DNA of 35,313 bases from Erysipelotrichaceae bacterium. Lineage in GTDB: Bacteria; Bacillota_I; Bacilli_A; Erysipelotrichales; Erysipelotrichaceae. The DNA is taken from NCBI GenBank assembly GCA_029974225.1, contig JARKSP010000027.1, positions 1-35,313 of the forward strand. Reading direction: 5' to 3'. The notes under the pieces were generated by a model. The model was not told the origin of the DNA and did no database searches. It was given only the letters and a program-made list of their open reading frames with translations. The translations under genes were made by a program, and so were the position numbers. This document shows, piece by piece, positions 15,317 to 21,463 of the stretch. Within the stretch, counting starts at the first letter, position 1. The number at the start of each line of letters is the position of its first letter.

Positions 15317-16660
15317 CTATTTAGTGAATATTTTCTCAATGTCACTAATAATTTTTCGATACATTTCATTTTCCTTTAATAGTCTTTCTATCTTCTCAAA
15401 AGCTGAAAGAACAGTTGTATGATCTCTTCCACCAAAATCATCGCCTATTTTTTCATAAGAATTATCTAAATGAATTCGACATAGATACATTGCCACATGT
15501 CTGGCAGTAGTAATATTCTTGGTTCTGCTTTTAGAAACAAGCTGTTTTTCAGTTAAACTGTAATAATCAGCGACAGCCTTGATAATTACTTTTGAAGAAA
15601 GTTCAGCATGACTATAGGAAGTAAACTGTAACTTATCTTTGAAAGCCTCTAGTGCTAAAGGCAGATCAATTTTCTGACCTTTAGAGAAGTTGATAGAATA
15701 AAATAAAAGTCTATTTAAGGCACCTTCTAGATTTCTAACATCAGTAGAAAAGTTTTTAGCAATAAAGGAAATTACATCACAATCAATGGAAGATTTATCA
15801 AGATGATGATTTTTAAGTTTTAATTCCAGAATTTTAACTGCTGTTTCAAACTCCAGGGAAGAAATTGTAACTGATAAACCTTGAGAAAAACGGGTTTTCA
15901 AGCGTTCTTCGATATCTTTTATCTGAACAGGAGGTCGATCAGAGGTTAAAACCACCTGTTTTCGATTATTAAACAGCTCATTATAGATAGTAAAGAAAAT
16001 TTCATTTGATTTCTGCTTACCAGATAAAAACTGAATGTCATCCACAAGCAGGATATCGACAGAATTTAATTGATTTTTATATTCTTCAATTGTATTATCG
16101 CGTAAAGATTTGCCAACTTCTTTAACAAAATCTAAACTGGTAATATATAAAACCTTTTTATCGTAATTATTCTGTTTAACATAGTTACCAATTGCGTGCA
16201 GCAAATGAGTTTTTCCCAGACCAGAATCACCATAGATAACTAAAGGATTGAAAAATTTTTCTCCTGGCTGCATAGCACAGGTTAAAGCTGCCATTTTAGC
16301 TTCCTTATTACTGGGTCCTTCAATAAAGTTATCAAACGAAAAATCAGGCAATAAATTGTCAGATAAATCTTTGGTGATAGTATCAATAATATATTTTTTC
16401 CGATAATCGTCGGTAGTCTCAATAACACAAGAGACATTCTGGTTCAAGAGAACTAAAAAACTATCATTAATTTCGGTTATTACATCAGATAACATAGCTT
16501 TATTGAAAACATAGGGAGTTACAATAATAGCATCATTTTCATCCAAATGAACAAGCTCGGATTCATCAAAATAATCAATATATGTAGACTTGCTTTTTTC
16601 ACGCAGTCTTTCATAAATTTTATCTTTCAACTGTTTATAAACGATATTCAAACTATACAT
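15317..16660 (-). CDS. dnaA: Chromosomal replication initiator DnaA
   Basis: AAA+ initiator that binds the DnaA boxes and melts the origin. Walker A is GDSGLGKTHLLHAIGN, Walker B DILLVDDIQFLSGK, and the domain IV signature is GDDFGGRDHTTVLSAFEKI, which reads TTATCCACA boxes. Domains I and II (first about 110 residues) are divergent and short, giving 447 residues. I choose ATG 16660 because GAG lies eight bases upstream; an in-frame GTG at 16669 sits too close to the site. Upstream is the box-rich origin, and a degenerate box lies between the promoter elements, so self-repression is likely. Confidence 0.98.
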   Translation of the reverse strand: MYSLNIVYKQLKDKIYERLREKSKSTYIDYFDESELVHLDENDAIIVTPYVFNKAMLSDVITEINDSFLVLLNQNVSCVIETTDDYRKKYIIDTITKDLSDNLLPDFSFDNFIEGPSNKEAKMAALTCAMQPGEKFFNPLVIYGDSGLGKTHLLHAIGNYVKQNNYDKKVLYITSLDFVKEVGKSLRDNTIEEYKNQLNSVDILLVDDIQFLSGKQKSNEIFFTIYNELFNNRKQVVLTSDRPPVQIKDIEERLKTRFSQGLSVTISSLEFETAVKILELKLKNHHLDKSSIDCDVISFIAKNFSTDVRNLEGALNRLLFYSINFSKGQKIDLPLALEAFKDKLQFTSYSHAELSSKVIIKAVADYYSLTEKQLVSKSRTKNITTARHVAMYLCRIHLDNSYEKIGDDFGGRDHTTVLSAFEKIERLLKENEMYRKIISDIEKIFTK

Positions 16661-16686
16661 CTTTATCACTCTTTCATTTGGGTAAT

Positions 16687-16714
16687 ATTATATTAACCTC
16701 TAAGTGGACAAAAA
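16687..16714 (-). promoter_or_regulatory. dnaA promoter
   Basis: On the minus strand TATAAT (complement of 16687-16692) lies 27 bases before the dnaA ATG, with a weak TTTTTG at the -35 position 16 bases further. Between them is a degenerate DnaA box (AGTGGACAA on the plus strand, 16703-16711). Confidence 0.55.
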
Positions 16715-16739
16715 TCTATCAATATTTTTTCCGCTAAAA

Positions 16740-16791
16740 GTTATCCACAATAAAGAAGATGTAAAAAAGATATATAAACAAAGTAAATATT
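16740..16791 (+). repeat. Origin direct repeat, copy 1
   Basis: A 52-base unit beginning GTTATCCACAATAAAGAAG, i.e. a perfect DnaA box followed by an A-rich tail. It recurs 160 bases downstream with two differences (at 16772 and 16779). Confidence 0.95.
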
Positions 16792-16899
16792 TAGTTATCC
16801 ACAATAATCCACGACTTTTATATGTGGATAAACGGTGGATAAAAACTAATAACTGTGGAAAAAGTGGATAACTTGGACTAAAATTAATAATCCACAAGA

Positions 16900-16951
16900 G
16901 TTATCCACAATAAAGAAGATGTAAAAAAGATGTATAAATAAAGTAAATATT
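16900..16951 (+). repeat. Origin direct repeat, copy 2
   Basis: Second copy of the 52-base unit, identical to copy 1 at 50 positions. The offset between copies is exactly 160 bases. Both copies start with a perfect DnaA box. Confidence 0.95.
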
Positions 16952-16970
16952 GCAATGACGCACATTTTTC

Positions 16971-17031
16971 CACAGATGTGAATAACCCTATTATCAACAT
17001 GTGGAGATATGTTGATTAAAAAACATCTGTG
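16971..17031. repeat. Nested inverted repeats at the right edge of oriC
   Basis: CACAGATGT (16971-16979) is the exact reverse complement of ACATCTGTG (17023-17031). Inside it, ATCAACAT (16993-17000) is the exact reverse complement of ATGTTGAT (17009-17016). The two share nearly the same centre. The inner right arm overlaps the -35 region of the next gene. Confidence 0.85.
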
Positions 17032-17038
17032 ATATAAT
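17012..17038 (+). promoter_or_regulatory. Promoter of the glucosaminidase-cohesin-like-htrA genes
   Basis: An extended -10 TGATATAAT has its TATAAT at 17033-17038. TTGATT at 17012-17017 is a -35 candidate with a short 15-base spacer. The TAGGAG ribosome binding site follows at 17048. Confidence 0.65.
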
Positions 17039-17061
17039 ATAAACAGATAGGAGTTTTCATT

Positions 17062-18840
17062 ATGCTTAAAAAGGTTTTACTAACTTTATTAATATTGACA
17101 ATGCTTATTACCGGCAATGGTTTTAACAATGTTCTGGCAGAAGAAAACCAGCAAGAAGAAACTATGTATTTAGAAGTAATGCAGAATGATGTAAGGGTTA
17201 GAACAGGCCCTTCGACCAGTTATGAAATTCTTACCATAAACGGGGAGAATCAATACTATCTGGAAGATGTTTTATATAAGGTCATAGGAAAACAGACTAA
17301 TGAAAAAAATGAACTCTGGTATAACGTTATTAATATCATTAATAATGTTGAATATCAGACCTGGGTAAGAGAAGATTTTGTCCTGTTACACTACTATGAA
17401 TTAGATGCAGTCTTTGAAGCCCATTTAGAAAGTGAAGGTTTTCCAGAAGAATATCGAGACTATTTAAGATTTTTGCATACCAAATATCCAAACTGGATTT
17501 TTAAGGCTTTCCATACCAATATCGTCTTTGCGGATATTCTGGCAGCTCAAAGTGTGCTGGGCAAAAGTCTGATCAGCGGCAGCAACCTGGCCTTAAGAAG
17601 TACCCAGCCGGGAGCTTATGATCCATCTACCGGTCAGTATATCGCTTTGGACGGTTATAGCTGGTATCAGGCTAATCCGGCAACGATAGCTTATTATATG
17701 GATCCTAGAAATTTCTTGAATGAACAGGATATCTTCCAGTTTTCAAAACTGTCGTTTAATGAAAACGAAAGACCTGAATGTATTCAGCAGATATTAGATG
17801 GAACCTTTATGGCGGGAGAAGTTCAGGTAGATGCCAATACCAGTAAAAGCTATGCGACTATTTTCTATGAAGCCGGACAGTATGCTCAGGTATCACCGAT
17901 ATATTTGGCAGTCAAAGCCAGAAATGAACAGGGAGTTACCGGTTCAGCAGCGGTAGATGGCAGGACGTTTGAATATAATGGAGTAGTTTATTCCGGTATT
18001 TATAATTTCTACAACATTCATGCTTATTCAGGTCCAGACAACTGGAAATACGGTTTAGTGTATGCTGCTACACCTGGCAGTTATGGCAGACCTTGGAACA
18101 GCATTGAAAAGTCTATTAAAGGTGGAGCGCTGTGGATTGCGGACGGATATATCAGCGACGGCCAGGACACACTGTATTATCAGAAATTTAACTGTGTTAA
18201 CGGAGCTTACTGGCATCAGTATGCGACCAATATCAGAGCAGCGTTCTCAGAAGGCCGAATGATGTACTCGAATTATCTTTTGGCCAATATATTAGATCAG
18301 GAACTGACTTTCAGTATTCCGATATATCTGGAGATGCCTGAAAAAACAGCTTTACCGACAGAAGTTGTCTATCCGGAAGTCGAAGAAGAGGTTCCTAATG
18401 AGGAACACTATACCGGCGATCTGATATTAGACTTGGATTTACAGAATGATTCAGGTTATCTAACCGGTTTTGAAATTGGAGCGACCTATCAGCAAATGCT
18501 GGACAGAATAGCATTAATGAATACGGGAGTGAATATCAGAATTGAAAGAAATGATGAAGAAAAACCAAAAGACGCTCTGATTGCAACAGGAGATACCTTA
18601 ATAATTATTGATGATGCCGGTGAAAGTACCTATACCGTTATTATTAAAGGTGATATTGATGGTGATGGCATAATAGGAACACTTGATTATCTGCTTTATC
18701 GAAAAGCACTTTTAAACACTTATGAAATGAACAATCTTGAGATAAAAGCAGCTGAAATTAACGGCGAAAAGGAAATTTCAACGTTAGGTTATCTGCATTT
18801 AAGGAAATATTTACTGGGAACAGGAAATATTGAACAATAG
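17062..18840 (+). CDS. Exported glucosaminidase with SH3b and dockerin-like domains
   Basis: Secreted peptidoglycan hydrolase, probably an endo-beta-N-acetylglucosaminidase of the LytD/GH73 type. A signal peptide occupies residues 1-26 (KK, hydrophobic core, VLAEE). An SH3b-type domain (about 38-110, DVRVRTGPSTSYE) probably binds wall. The catalytic region (about 130-420) has the family wording YMDPRNFLNEQDIFQF and the likely catalytic glutamate E289 in VKARNEQG. The last 66 residues form a dockerin-like domain: the first calcium loop is intact (D531, D533, D535 ... D542 in GDIDGDGIIGTLD), the second is degenerate. TAGGAG lies eight bases before ATG 17062. The next gene encodes a cohesin-like membrane protein, so the dockerin may have a partner. 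Confidence 0.85.
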   Translation: MLKKVLLTLLILTMLITGNGFNNVLAEENQQEETMYLEVMQNDVRVRTGPSTSYEILTINGENQYYLEDVLYKVIGKQTNEKNELWYNVINIINNVEYQTWVREDFVLLHYYELDAVFEAHLESEGFPEEYRDYLRFLHTKYPNWIFKAFHTNIVFADILAAQSVLGKSLISGSNLALRSTQPGAYDPSTGQYIALDGYSWYQANPATIAYYMDPRNFLNEQDIFQFSKLSFNENERPECIQQILDGTFMAGEVQVDANTSKSYATIFYEAGQYAQVSPIYLAVKARNEQGVTGSAAVDGRTFEYNGVVYSGIYNFYNIHAYSGPDNWKYGLVYAATPGSYGRPWNSIEKSIKGGALWIADGYISDGQDTLYYQKFNCVNGAYWHQYATNIRAAFSEGRMMYSNYLLANILDQELTFSIPIYLEMPEKTALPTEVVYPEVEEEVPNEEHYTGDLILDLDLQNDSGYLTGFEIGATYQQMLDRIALMNTGVNIRIERNDEEKPKDALIATGDTLIIIDDAGESTYTVIIKGDIDGDGIIGTLDYLLYRKALLNTYEMNNLEIKAAEINGEKEISTLGYLHLRKYLLGTGNIEQ

Positions 18841-18849
18841 GTGAAATAT

Positions 18850-20172
18850 ATGAAAAGAAAAATTTGGGCATTACTAACAATAATTACGATAATTGTTTCA
18901 ACAATAAAACCAATTAAAGCAGACACAGGAACTGTAACTGCTTATTTATCCAGTGATTCGGTAGTATTATCTAATAAAGTCACATTAACGATAAAACTGT
19001 CCTGTGAAGGGGGAGTTGGAGGAGGAAAAATTCTTTTTTCCTATGACAAACAATATTTACAGTATTCTTCAAGCAACTTAAATGGGCGTGGACATATTGA
19101 AGGTAACCTGATAGTTGTTGAGCCAAGTGCAGATAAAACAGTAACTTTCACCATTACTTTTTCAACGATAAAAATAGGCTCAACCAACGTTCAGGTTAAC
19201 ACCTCACAGTTTGCCAGTTATGATCCGCCAAAATATGTGGGCGGTTATAACGAAAACATTGTCAAAGCATTACAGATTAAAGCTCAGACAACAAACAATA
19301 CGACAACTACCACACCTTTGTCTTCGGATGCTTCGCTGACATCCTTACAGATAGAAAACATCGAATTTGAACAGCCGTTTTCATCAGATGTCTACGAATA
19401 TACAGCCTATGCACCAATAAATACGGAAACAATCAGTGTCCTGGCTAAAGCCAGCAGTTCAAAAGCAACAATCAATAAAATAAATGAAAGTGTTAAAGAA
19501 GGCTGGAACGAAATAGAGGTAGTGTGTGTGGCCCAGGATAAAACAACAAAAACATATAAAATCAGATTATATGTTGAAGAGAAGCCTAAGATAGTTTATC
19601 AGGACAAAGATCTGGGAGTTGTTGTCAATCTGGATAAGGTCACAGATCCGGAAGGCTTTGTAAGAAAAGAAATTATCGTCAAGGAAAATCAGATAACCAT
19701 CTTTAACAAGGGAAAATTAAATCTGATCTATCTGGCTGATGGCGAAAATAACAAAGACTTCTATCTGTATGATGTCGAAAATGATAAGGTCGGAAGTAAG
19801 TTTGAACCGCTGGAAATTGATGGTAAACAATATTTAATAAACGAGATTGATTATACAGAATTTACCGAGATGGAGAAATTTTATAAGCCAATAAAGGTTA
19901 TCATCAACGGAAAACAGTTTGATGGCTGGATGTCTCTAGCAAACAATATGAATAATTATCGCCTGGTCTATTTAAAAGATCTTGAGGGCAATGATGGCAT
20001 CTACAGTTATGAAATGAGCGAAAAAACCCTACAGAAGTTTACTTTACCTTTGTATCCTGTTGAAGAGGATAAAATGGAAGTAAGAGAGATGCTGTATCTG
20101 ACAGCTGCTGTTGCCGGAACAGCAAGTTTAATTTTTGCGATATTCCTGACCCTGAAAAGAAAAGAAGGATAA
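18850..20172 (+). CDS. Membrane-anchored surface protein with cohesin-like and cadherin-like domains
   Basis: A 440-residue exported protein. Signal peptide is residues 1-24 (MKRKIWALL...IKADTG). Residues about 26-140 form a beta-sandwich whose layout (SDSVVLSNKVTLTIKLS, GGKILFSYDKQYLQY, TITFSTIKIGSTNVQV) resembles type I/II cohesins. A cadherin-like beta-sandwich repeat follows (about 155-240, SLTSLQIENIEFEQPFSSDVYEYTA, then KTYKIRLYVEE). The rest is an unassigned extracellular region, ending in one transmembrane helix (YLTAAVAGTASLIFAIFLTL) and a KRKEG cytoplasmic tail. I place the start at ATG 18850 because AGGTGA lies upstream; a GTG at 18841 touches the previous stop. It is translated directly after the dockerin-bearing glucosaminidase. 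The cohesin call rests on pattern, not on a database match. Confidence 0.75.
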   Translation: MKRKIWALLTIITIIVSTIKPIKADTGTVTAYLSSDSVVLSNKVTLTIKLSCEGGVGGGKILFSYDKQYLQYSSSNLNGRGHIEGNLIVVEPSADKTVTFTITFSTIKIGSTNVQVNTSQFASYDPPKYVGGYNENIVKALQIKAQTTNNTTTTTPLSSDASLTSLQIENIEFEQPFSSDVYEYTAYAPINTETISVLAKASSSKATINKINESVKEGWNEIEVVCVAQDKTTKTYKIRLYVEEKPKIVYQDKDLGVVVNLDKVTDPEGFVRKEIIVKENQITIFNKGKLNLIYLADGENNKDFYLYDVENDKVGSKFEPLEIDGKQYLINEIDYTEFTEMEKFYKPIKVIINGKQFDGWMSLANNMNNYRLVYLKDLEGNDGIYSYEMSEKTLQKFTLPLYPVEEDKMEVREMLYLTAAVAGTASLIFAIFLTLKRKEG

Positions 20173-20215: not shown

Positions 20216-21463
20216 ATGAATGAATCATATGAAAATAAAGAGGAAATAGTCAGCGAAGAACCTTCGAGTTTTGAAAAAGATTATGTGATTATCGGCAGAG
20301 ATGGAAATACAGGAACCATTTTTGAAACAATTGATAGAATAAAAAGAAAAAATGATAAGAATAAAAGCAATAATAGTTTTCCTATTGGATTTATTATATT
20401 GATGTGGGTTGTGACGATTTTAATCTCCACAATCAGCAGCTATGTGACAGCTAAAATGGTGCTGAAAAATGTGGAGAATAAGACAGTTGTAATTGAGCAG
20501 CCGAATCAAAACCTCAACAGTCCGACAGTCGTTATTTCAGGGAAAACTGATATTAGCGAGGTAGTAAGCAATATCAAAGACACGATTGTTGAAGTCTATA
20601 CCGAATCAACTAAATTCAGTGCTTTTTATGATGAATATATCATCGAAGGAGCAGGATCAGGTGTTATTTATACCAGTGACGGATATATTATTACCAACAA
20701 TCATGTCATTGAAGGCGCTAATACTATCATGGTAGTATTGACTAACGGCGAAAAATATAACGCCAGACTGATTGCCAGCGATCTGGTCAGTGATATTGCG
20801 GTAATTAAAATTGATGCTCAAGGACTGAAAGCAGTAACTATCGGTGATTCCAGTCAGATTAAAGTTGGTCAGATTTGTATTGCGATAGGAAATCCGCTGG
20901 GAACATTAGGCGGAACAGTTACCGATGGAATTATCAGTGCTCTAAGCAGAGAAATCACCATTGATGGACAGAAGATGAACTTGCTGCAGACAAATACCGC
21001 TATCAGTCCAGGAAATTCTGGCGGAGGACTGTTTGATGTTGCCGGCAACCTGATTGGTATTATCAATGCCAAAAGTGCTGGTGAGTATATAGAGGGAATT
21101 GGCTTTGCGATTCCGGTAAATAATGCAGTTGATGTCGCAAAACAGTTAATTGCCCAAGGATATGTTGAAGGAAGGCCACAGCTGGGTATCAAAGGTGTAT
21201 CAATTGAAACGATGCAGCAGGCCTGGGACTACAGTGTCAGTACCTTTGGAGTGTATGTTTTAGAAGTGCTTACTGAATCAGCAAAAAAATCAGGAATAAA
21301 AGTTGGAGATGTAATTGTAAATTTTGCAGGCGTAGAAATAACATCTATTACTGACCTAAGAATAGTGTTATGTAATTACTCTGCTGGTGATACAGTAGAA
21401 ATTCAAGTAGTAAGAGGACAAAACACGTTAACCTTACTTCTCACATTAGAACAAAAGAAATAG
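20216..21463 (+). CDS. htrA: HtrA/DegP-like membrane serine protease
   Basis: Surface quality-control protease that removes misfolded exported proteins. A cytoplasmic N-terminus of about 54 residues is followed by one transmembrane helix (about 57-79). The trypsin-like domain has the triad H163 (TNNHVIEG), D193 (SDIAVIKI) and S268 (SPGNSGGGLFD). A single PDZ domain occupies the last 90 residues (GVYVLEVLTESAKKSGIKVGDVIV). The 415 residues and one PDZ match Firmicutes HtrA/HtrB/YyxA. GGGAGG lies six bases before ATG 20216. A bulged hairpin (20173-20194) without T-run lies between it and the preceding gene. It follows two secreted proteins, which fits a role in their folding or turnover. Confidence 0.94.
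   Translation: MNESYENKEEIVSEEPSSFEKDYVIIGRDGNTGTIFETIDRIKRKNDKNKSNNSFPIGFIILMWVVTILISTISSYVTAKMVLKNVENKTVVIEQPNQNLNSPTVVISGKTDISEVVSNIKDTIVEVYTESTKFSAFYDEYIIEGAGSGVIYTSDGYIITNNHVIEGANTIMVVLTNGEKYNARLIASDLVSDIAVIKIDAQGLKAVTIGDSSQIKVGQICIAIGNPLGTLGGTVTDGIISALSREITIDGQKMNLLQTNTAISPGNSGGGLFDVAGNLIGIINAKSAGEYIEGIGFAIPVNNAVDVAKQLIAQGYVEGRPQLGIKGVSIETMQQAWDYSVSTFGVYVLEVLTESAKKSGIKVGDVIVNFAGVEITSITDLRIVLCNYSAGDTVEIQVVRGQNTLTLLLTLEQKK

Follow-up and report, generated by a model that had tools for sequence, protein, structure and literature searches.

Organization of the locus

The window, i.e. the whole stretch of 35,313 nucleotides that was analysed (contig JARKSP010000027.1 of an Erysipelotrichaceae bacterium), contains two genes, P1 and P2, the second of which directly follows the first on the same strand. 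The features of the pair and of the gene downstream are:

17062..18840, plus strand: P1, 592 aa, an exported glucosaminidase of the SagB-like GH73 kind that ends in a type I dockerin
17587..18276, plus strand: GH73 catalytic region of P1, residues 176-405 (NCBIfam SagB match and PDB SagB/autolysin matches)
17926-17928, plus strand: conserved glutamate E289 of P1 (alignment of relatives)
18646..18816, plus strand: dockerin of P1, residues 529-585 (Pfam Dockerin_1, E 8.6e-6; same coordinates in the genome scan)
18652..18687, plus strand: dockerin calcium loop 1, D531-D542, intact; contacts T540, L541, R547, K548 and L551 within or after the loop
18754..18789, plus strand: dockerin loop 2, residues 565-576, degenerate ligands E565, E569 and G576; contacts T574, L575, R581, K582 and L585
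18850..20172, plus strand: P2, putative membrane-anchored receptor, 440 aa from ATG 18850; GTG 18841 possible
18850..18921, plus strand: P2 signal peptide, approximately residues 1-24 (sequence; helix 2-17 in the predicted model)
18916..19287, plus strand: P2 N-terminal domain of predicted cohesin fold (N-domain), approximately residues 23-146 (AlphaFold pLDDT mostly >85; 2jh2 match; family profile)
19336..19572, plus strand: P2 Cadherin-like beta sandwich, residues 163-241 (Pfam PF12733, E 1.6e-8)
19582..20043, plus strand: P2 conserved domain with no Pfam match, approximately residues 245-398 (conserved in relatives; beta-rich in the model)
20080..20166, plus strand: P2 C-terminal membrane helix, residues 411-439 (single hydrophobic helix, basic residues at its end)
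20216..21463, plus strand: HtrA-type protease, starting 43 bases after P2; unlikely to belong to the docking device

An AGGTG that overlaps the stop codon of P1 is suitably spaced for the ATG at 18850, and therefore this codon is the likely start of P2, rather than the GTG at 18841. At positions 15317-17061 of the window, the intergenic region on the origin side is common to dnaA (minus strand) and the hydrolase gene (plus strand); dnaA, the pair and htrA occur together only in the genus of the window and one more. A gene for HtrA likewise stands beside the pair in two genera only, that of the window and one other. The suggestion of the first-pass annotation that HtrA controls the complex is therefore unsupported.

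The enzyme and its dockerin

P1 has a signal peptide. In its catalytic region it resembles SagB-like GH73 enzymes: PDB sequence matches include 6fxo (1.4e-10) and SagB itself (6u0o, 2.8e-9), and E289, which is conserved among the aligned relatives, occupies the position of the GH73 catalytic residue. The NCBIfam model amidase_SagB matches P1 with E 2.6e-16, far under the model's curated cut-off of 425 bits, and P1 is thus best classed as a relative of SagB rather than SagB proper.

The dockerin scores 26.3 bits, above the curated Dockerin_1 gathering score of 22.9. The first-pass annotation had described the loop D531-D542 as intact and the second loop as degenerate, and this is borne out by loop 2 (EINGEKEISTLG), where ligand positions 1, 5 and 12 are occupied by E, E and G. 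The P1 dockerin does not, then, possess two intact calcium loops. Both loops are retained in the dockerins of most relatives, and that of P1 ranks among the more degenerate members of its family. Because the ligands of loop 2 have decayed, the plug of P1 is, judged by its sequence, a degenerate type I dockerin.

The receptor

For the protein following the hydrolase, the first reading had listed a signal peptide, a cohesin-like domain, a cadherin-like domain and a C-terminal helix. All of these were recovered, the cohesin-like domain by fold search and family profile. The AlphaFold model of P2 has a mean pLDDT of 86.8, and in it the whole N-domain adopts the cohesin jelly roll. Cohesins are the best structural matches of the N-domain model (VIA), as the idea of a cohesin-like partner had anticipated, with 2jh2 at the top (Z 12.9, 2.4 A, 118 residues), followed by 2vo8 (Z 12.8), the cellulosomal 1g1k (Z 11.6) and numerous other cohesins; the top cohesins are Clostridium perfringens modules (2jh2, 2vo8, 2w1n). 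Non-cohesin structures score near them, namely the CLIPPER adhesin domain (Z 12.6) and pilins (about 11), so that the cohesin fold by itself is not exclusive for P2.

A profile of the long-type N-domain was built from 12 sequences of the genus of the window and one further genus. When it is compared with all PDB sequences, the first three matches are all cohesins (2y3n_A, 2.9e-5; 1tyj_A, 1.8e-4; 5g5d_A, 6.2e-3). Pfam Cohesin (PF00963) has no match in P2, and it found neither P2 nor the other receptors in the genome scans; it is also absent among the 25 commonest families listed for 49 receptors. The case for a cohesin-like P2 is therefore made by the fold search together with the family profile, and the N-domain, as modelled, is a cohesin-fold domain and not a Pfam cohesin.

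Conservation of the gene pair

Of 148 genomes sampled from the order, 45 have a homologue of the receptor. With a more sensitive profile, 98 of 316 genomes have a receptor match, some of these being mere Cadherin-like repeats of other proteins. Within the order, 80 distinct pairs of neighbouring genes have the dockerin gene first and the receptor gene second, with gaps mostly of -17 to +23 bases, and in another family of the class the same pair is present at 19 of 20 loci. Wherever a receptor has the N-domain and its upstream flank is available, a dockerin gene ends beside it, with the exception of L122, L152, L157 and L159. The first two represent an orphan paralogue in the genus of the window, and the last two have a dockerin close by in another arrangement. 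At one locus (L087 in G040), a run of N in the record makes the upstream gene translate to X at its dockerin end, which affects the last repeat.

Three receptor homologues (L106, L107 and L108) have no N-domain, and a dockerin neighbour is absent beside all three. The beta-rich domain that corresponds to 19582-20043 of P2 is retained even in these homologues.

At the level of genomes, the first-pass annotation had proposed that the two domains should co-occur among related genomes, and they do: in addition to the adjacent pairs, a dockerin is present in 41 of the 45 genomes with the receptor as against 35 of the 103 others (Fisher p 5e-11, with relatedness of the genomes ignored). Since the pair is conserved across genomes, a chance origin of the P1-P2 arrangement is excluded.

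Symmetry of the dockerin contact surface

In type I dockerins, the contact positions of each F-hand are 11, 12, 18, 19, 22 and 23 (PMC4728124), which are 10, 11, 17, 18, 21 and 22 in the numbering of this analysis. Among 66 non-redundant dockerins, five of the six published positions are identical between the two half-repeats in 76-100% of cases, compared with 13-39% expected by shuffling, while the sixth shows little symmetry (56% vs 44% expected) and the calcium-ligand positions have hardly any excess. The symmetry of the contacts was reproduced in an independent set of 18 dockerins from the other family of the class. Positions 13, 14 and 20, which are outside the published list, are mirrored as well.

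The P1 dockerin consists of two F-hand repeats with mirrored contacts (T540/T574, L541/L575, R547/R581, K548/K582 and L551/L585), despite its lost loop 2 ligands. The decayed second loop might be taken to mean that the dockerin is vestigial; this reading is disfavoured, as the contact residues remain mirrored between the half-repeats. Such symmetry would be the expected appearance of a dual-binding dockerin under selection to bind. Because two mirror-image contact surfaces are kept, the P1 dockerin can probably dock in either of two orientations.

Co-change of the contacts and the receptor domain

Co-change along the branches was computed for contact columns comprising the published positions together with 13, 14 and 20, the latter picked from the symmetry result. 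On the tree of the cadherin and C-terminal domains, the mean z of the contact positions with the N-domain, an average over noisy parsimony counts, is 1.09, and 7.2% of the column pairs exceed 3. On the same tree, there is no co-change of the contact positions with the cadherin (0.12), C-terminal (0.04) or catalytic (0.08) columns. The value against the N-domain is 1.28 on the catalytic-domain tree; on the tree of all regions concatenated it is lower, at 0.76. No value above 0.22 is obtained from 108 contiguous control windows or from rate-matched resampling with 5,000 draws. The co-variation of the two domains for which the first-pass annotation had called is present. The signal is spread over the entire N-domain and maps no interface.

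Since the dockerin and the receptor domain adjoin in the DNA, the two might be co-transcribed with no mutual binding, each of them binding wall or calcium, and the co-change might come from recombination of adjacent DNA. The non-contact columns of the dockerin also co-change somewhat with the N-domain (mean z 0.54), as this explanation would have it. Against it, the signal peptide of the receptor, although encoded between the two domains, has values of only 0.26 and 0.11 where the N-domain has 1.02 and 0.83, which argues that the co-change is not simple linkage; the contact columns have about twice the value of the non-contact columns on every tree; and the same contact residues are kept by both half-repeats. 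An arrangement without binding is therefore considered very improbable.

A different partner is conceivable too. The source genome encodes a second cohesin-like, cadherin-like and membrane-anchored protein of 347 aa, the orphan paralogue mentioned above (L152:4431-5474, minus strand, which is G000:C7; also L122 in G002). It has 21.3 bits against Pfam Cohesin, under the cut-off but above the score of P2, and the P1 dockerin could bind this or some other cohesin-like protein, P2 being a mere neighbour. The paralogue, however, has no dockerin neighbour, whereas dockerin gene and receptor gene are neighbours in dozens of genomes and the dockerin co-changes with the N-domain of its own neighbour. 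We regard it as improbable that P2 is only a bystander. The single dockerin of the genome may instead have two receptors, with the orphan paralogue as an additional one.

Some other comparisons were set aside. In a comparison of distance trees of the dockerin and receptor domains, shared ancestry confounds the result and no specific link emerges, and column mutual information mostly reflects a single divergent clade and the C-terminal columns. A relation between K/R at contact position 17 and aromatic or acidic N-domain residues (0 of 10 R-type vs 29 of 42 others) was picked post hoc, and the difference between the contact codes of two pairs within one genome is not significant (p 0.29).

Cargo enzymes in relatives

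Dockerin_1 is found in all 47 of the upstream proteins and Pfam Glucosaminidase in 33 of them; other cargo in this set includes GH25, Amidase_2 and metallo-beta-lactamase. In the other family, the cargo is SagB-like at 16 of 20 loci and an M6 metalloprotease at two, and subtilases occur among the cargo in further sets. The catalytic domain is thus swapped among the upstream proteins while the dockerin is kept. The first-pass annotation had seen in the pair a complex for cell-wall turnover. This holds in so far as peptidoglycan hydrolases are the commonest cargo, but it is too narrow, because relatives carry metallo-beta-lactamase, M6 protease and subtilase cargo. The device would be, on present annotation of domains, a general tether for surface enzymes.

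Several loci illustrate the range of the upstream proteins. L086:2536-3756 and similar short genes in L071, L092 and L095 encode dockerin proteins of 406-435 aa; L086 carries a metallo-beta-lactamase domain, which four members of the set have, and would thus bring to the same socket a cargo that does not look like a wall hydrolase. In the other family, L161 and L165 encode dockerin proteins of 941-978 aa with no glucosaminidase. L161 has an M6 metalloprotease domain; the second M6 match is probably L165, with 52% identity to L161. More distant receptors in other genera of the family (L153, L154, L156 and L158) have dockerin neighbours of 858-1507 aa; two proteins in their alignment have subtilase domains. 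This is a further branch of the device.

The variety of the cargo bears on what binding would do. P2 might bind the hydrolase but act mainly as its regulator, either activator or inhibitor, and not as a tether. In Staphylococcus, the active site of SagB is oriented by its membrane partner SpdC (PMC10581084), and P2 has a further conserved domain to which no role is assigned. On the other hand, one kind of anchor serves enzymes of several unrelated families, as would be expected of a tether more than of a control specific to one catalysis. A mainly regulatory P2 is accordingly rated as rather unlikely, and the tether itself as probable.

The short receptor form

Most relatives have an N-domain of only some 90 residues with a compact, Ig-like fold. 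A model of such a short domain (91 residues, pLDDT 98.1) finds Ig-like and PKD-like structures as its best matches (Z 9.3-7.6) and has no clear match to a cohesin; the lone cohesin, 2jh2 (Z 7.8), is at rank 27, level with unrelated Ig-like domains, a placing that speaks neither for nor against a cohesin. The long and short forms are homologous (hhalign probability 96.5), and we infer that the short N-domain is a reduced cohesin. A class-wide picture may be drawn from this, in which each dockerin is paired with one membrane-anchored receptor, and in which the binding domain of these receptors has been reduced from a cohesin to an Ig-like domain of about 90 residues. It would amount to a new type of dockerin receptor and to a tether of general use for self-directed surface enzymes, and we lean towards it by a little.

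Comparison with known systems

The pair shares with the type I pairs of cellulosomes a two-half-repeat Pfam type I dockerin, mirrored contacts at the published positions, a predicted cohesin fold in the receptor of the window, and the placement of enzyme and anchor on separate proteins. It differs in having one cohesin per anchor, no scaffoldin and no plant-polymer dockerin enzyme, in the direct anchoring of the receptor in the membrane, and in the receptor domain of about 90 residues in most relatives. The source genome (95% complete) has a single Dockerin_1 match, that on the GH73 enzyme P1, in agreement with the earlier view of a one-enzyme, membrane-tethered complex not directed at plant polymers. 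The set of a multi-cohesin scaffoldin and several plant-polymer dockerin enzymes that marks a cellulosome was not found in this genome, where one sub-threshold Pfam Cohesin match lies elsewhere.

The closest functional parallel is SagB-SpdC of Staphylococcus aureus, in which a SagB-like GH73 glucosaminidase is held by a membrane protein and is proposed to release nascent glycan (PMC10581084). By this analogy we infer a wall role for P1. SpdC is an integral-membrane CAAX protease homologue, whereas the partner here is a single-pass beta-sandwich protein with a predicted dockerin contact. In the single-cohesin 'nonSLH-anchoring scaffoldins' of Herbinix luporum and Clostridium cibarium, one cohesin is likewise combined with a C-terminal membrane helix, and their partners are reported as unclear (PMC11557425). 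Those proteins come from genomes screened as cellulosome producers; here, in contrast, the putative partner is the product of an adjacent wall-hydrolase gene.

The cohesin-like modules of C. perfringens (GH84C and relatives), which provide the best structural matches of the N-domain, are also non-cellulosomal, but they are cohesins on glycoside hydrolases that are thought to join enzymes pairwise (PMC12997984), while P2 is a non-catalytic membrane anchor. A dockerin on a peptidoglycan hydrolase is known from Ruminococcus champanellensis, as far as the citation in PMC6403190 goes; according to the same citation it is part of a plant-fibre cellulosome, in contrast to the self-contained two-gene pair without a cellulosome in the window. 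The pairing had been called little described in the first-pass annotation, and we found no account of such a dockerin/receptor pair in the literature, of which few subscription papers were reached by the search. The self-contained two-gene pair and the shrunken receptor appear to be new.

Proposed mechanism and its meaning

Taken with the computed domains, pairing, symmetry and co-change, P1 and P2 very probably constitute a dedicated enzyme/anchor pair, in which the dockerin would bind the cohesin-fold N-domain and the membrane helix would serve as the tether. P1 would be secreted and its dockerin, the decayed second calcium loop notwithstanding, would dock to the N-domain of P2 through either of its mirrored surfaces. 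The C-terminal helix would hold the receptor in the cytoplasmic membrane, and the glucosaminidase, instead of diffusing off, would stay on the side of the wall that faces the membrane, where it could trim new glycan strands. The same plug-and-socket module is present class-wide, with other surface enzymes as cargo in some lineages.

Dockerins and cohesins are known chiefly from plant-fibre complexes, and stray ones elsewhere are often unexplained. Here, the dockerin has a named, adjacent and co-changing partner in many genomes, and therefore a concrete and cheap binding test is possible. Natural variation among dozens of such plugs and sockets offers material for reading the specificity code, and the pairs point to a putative dockerin-binding domain that is much smaller than a cohesin. 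It appears that the docking device of plant-fibre degraders has been reused for tethering the bacterium's own surface enzymes singly, and the pair hints at a way in which autolysins may be retained at the membrane of these bacteria.
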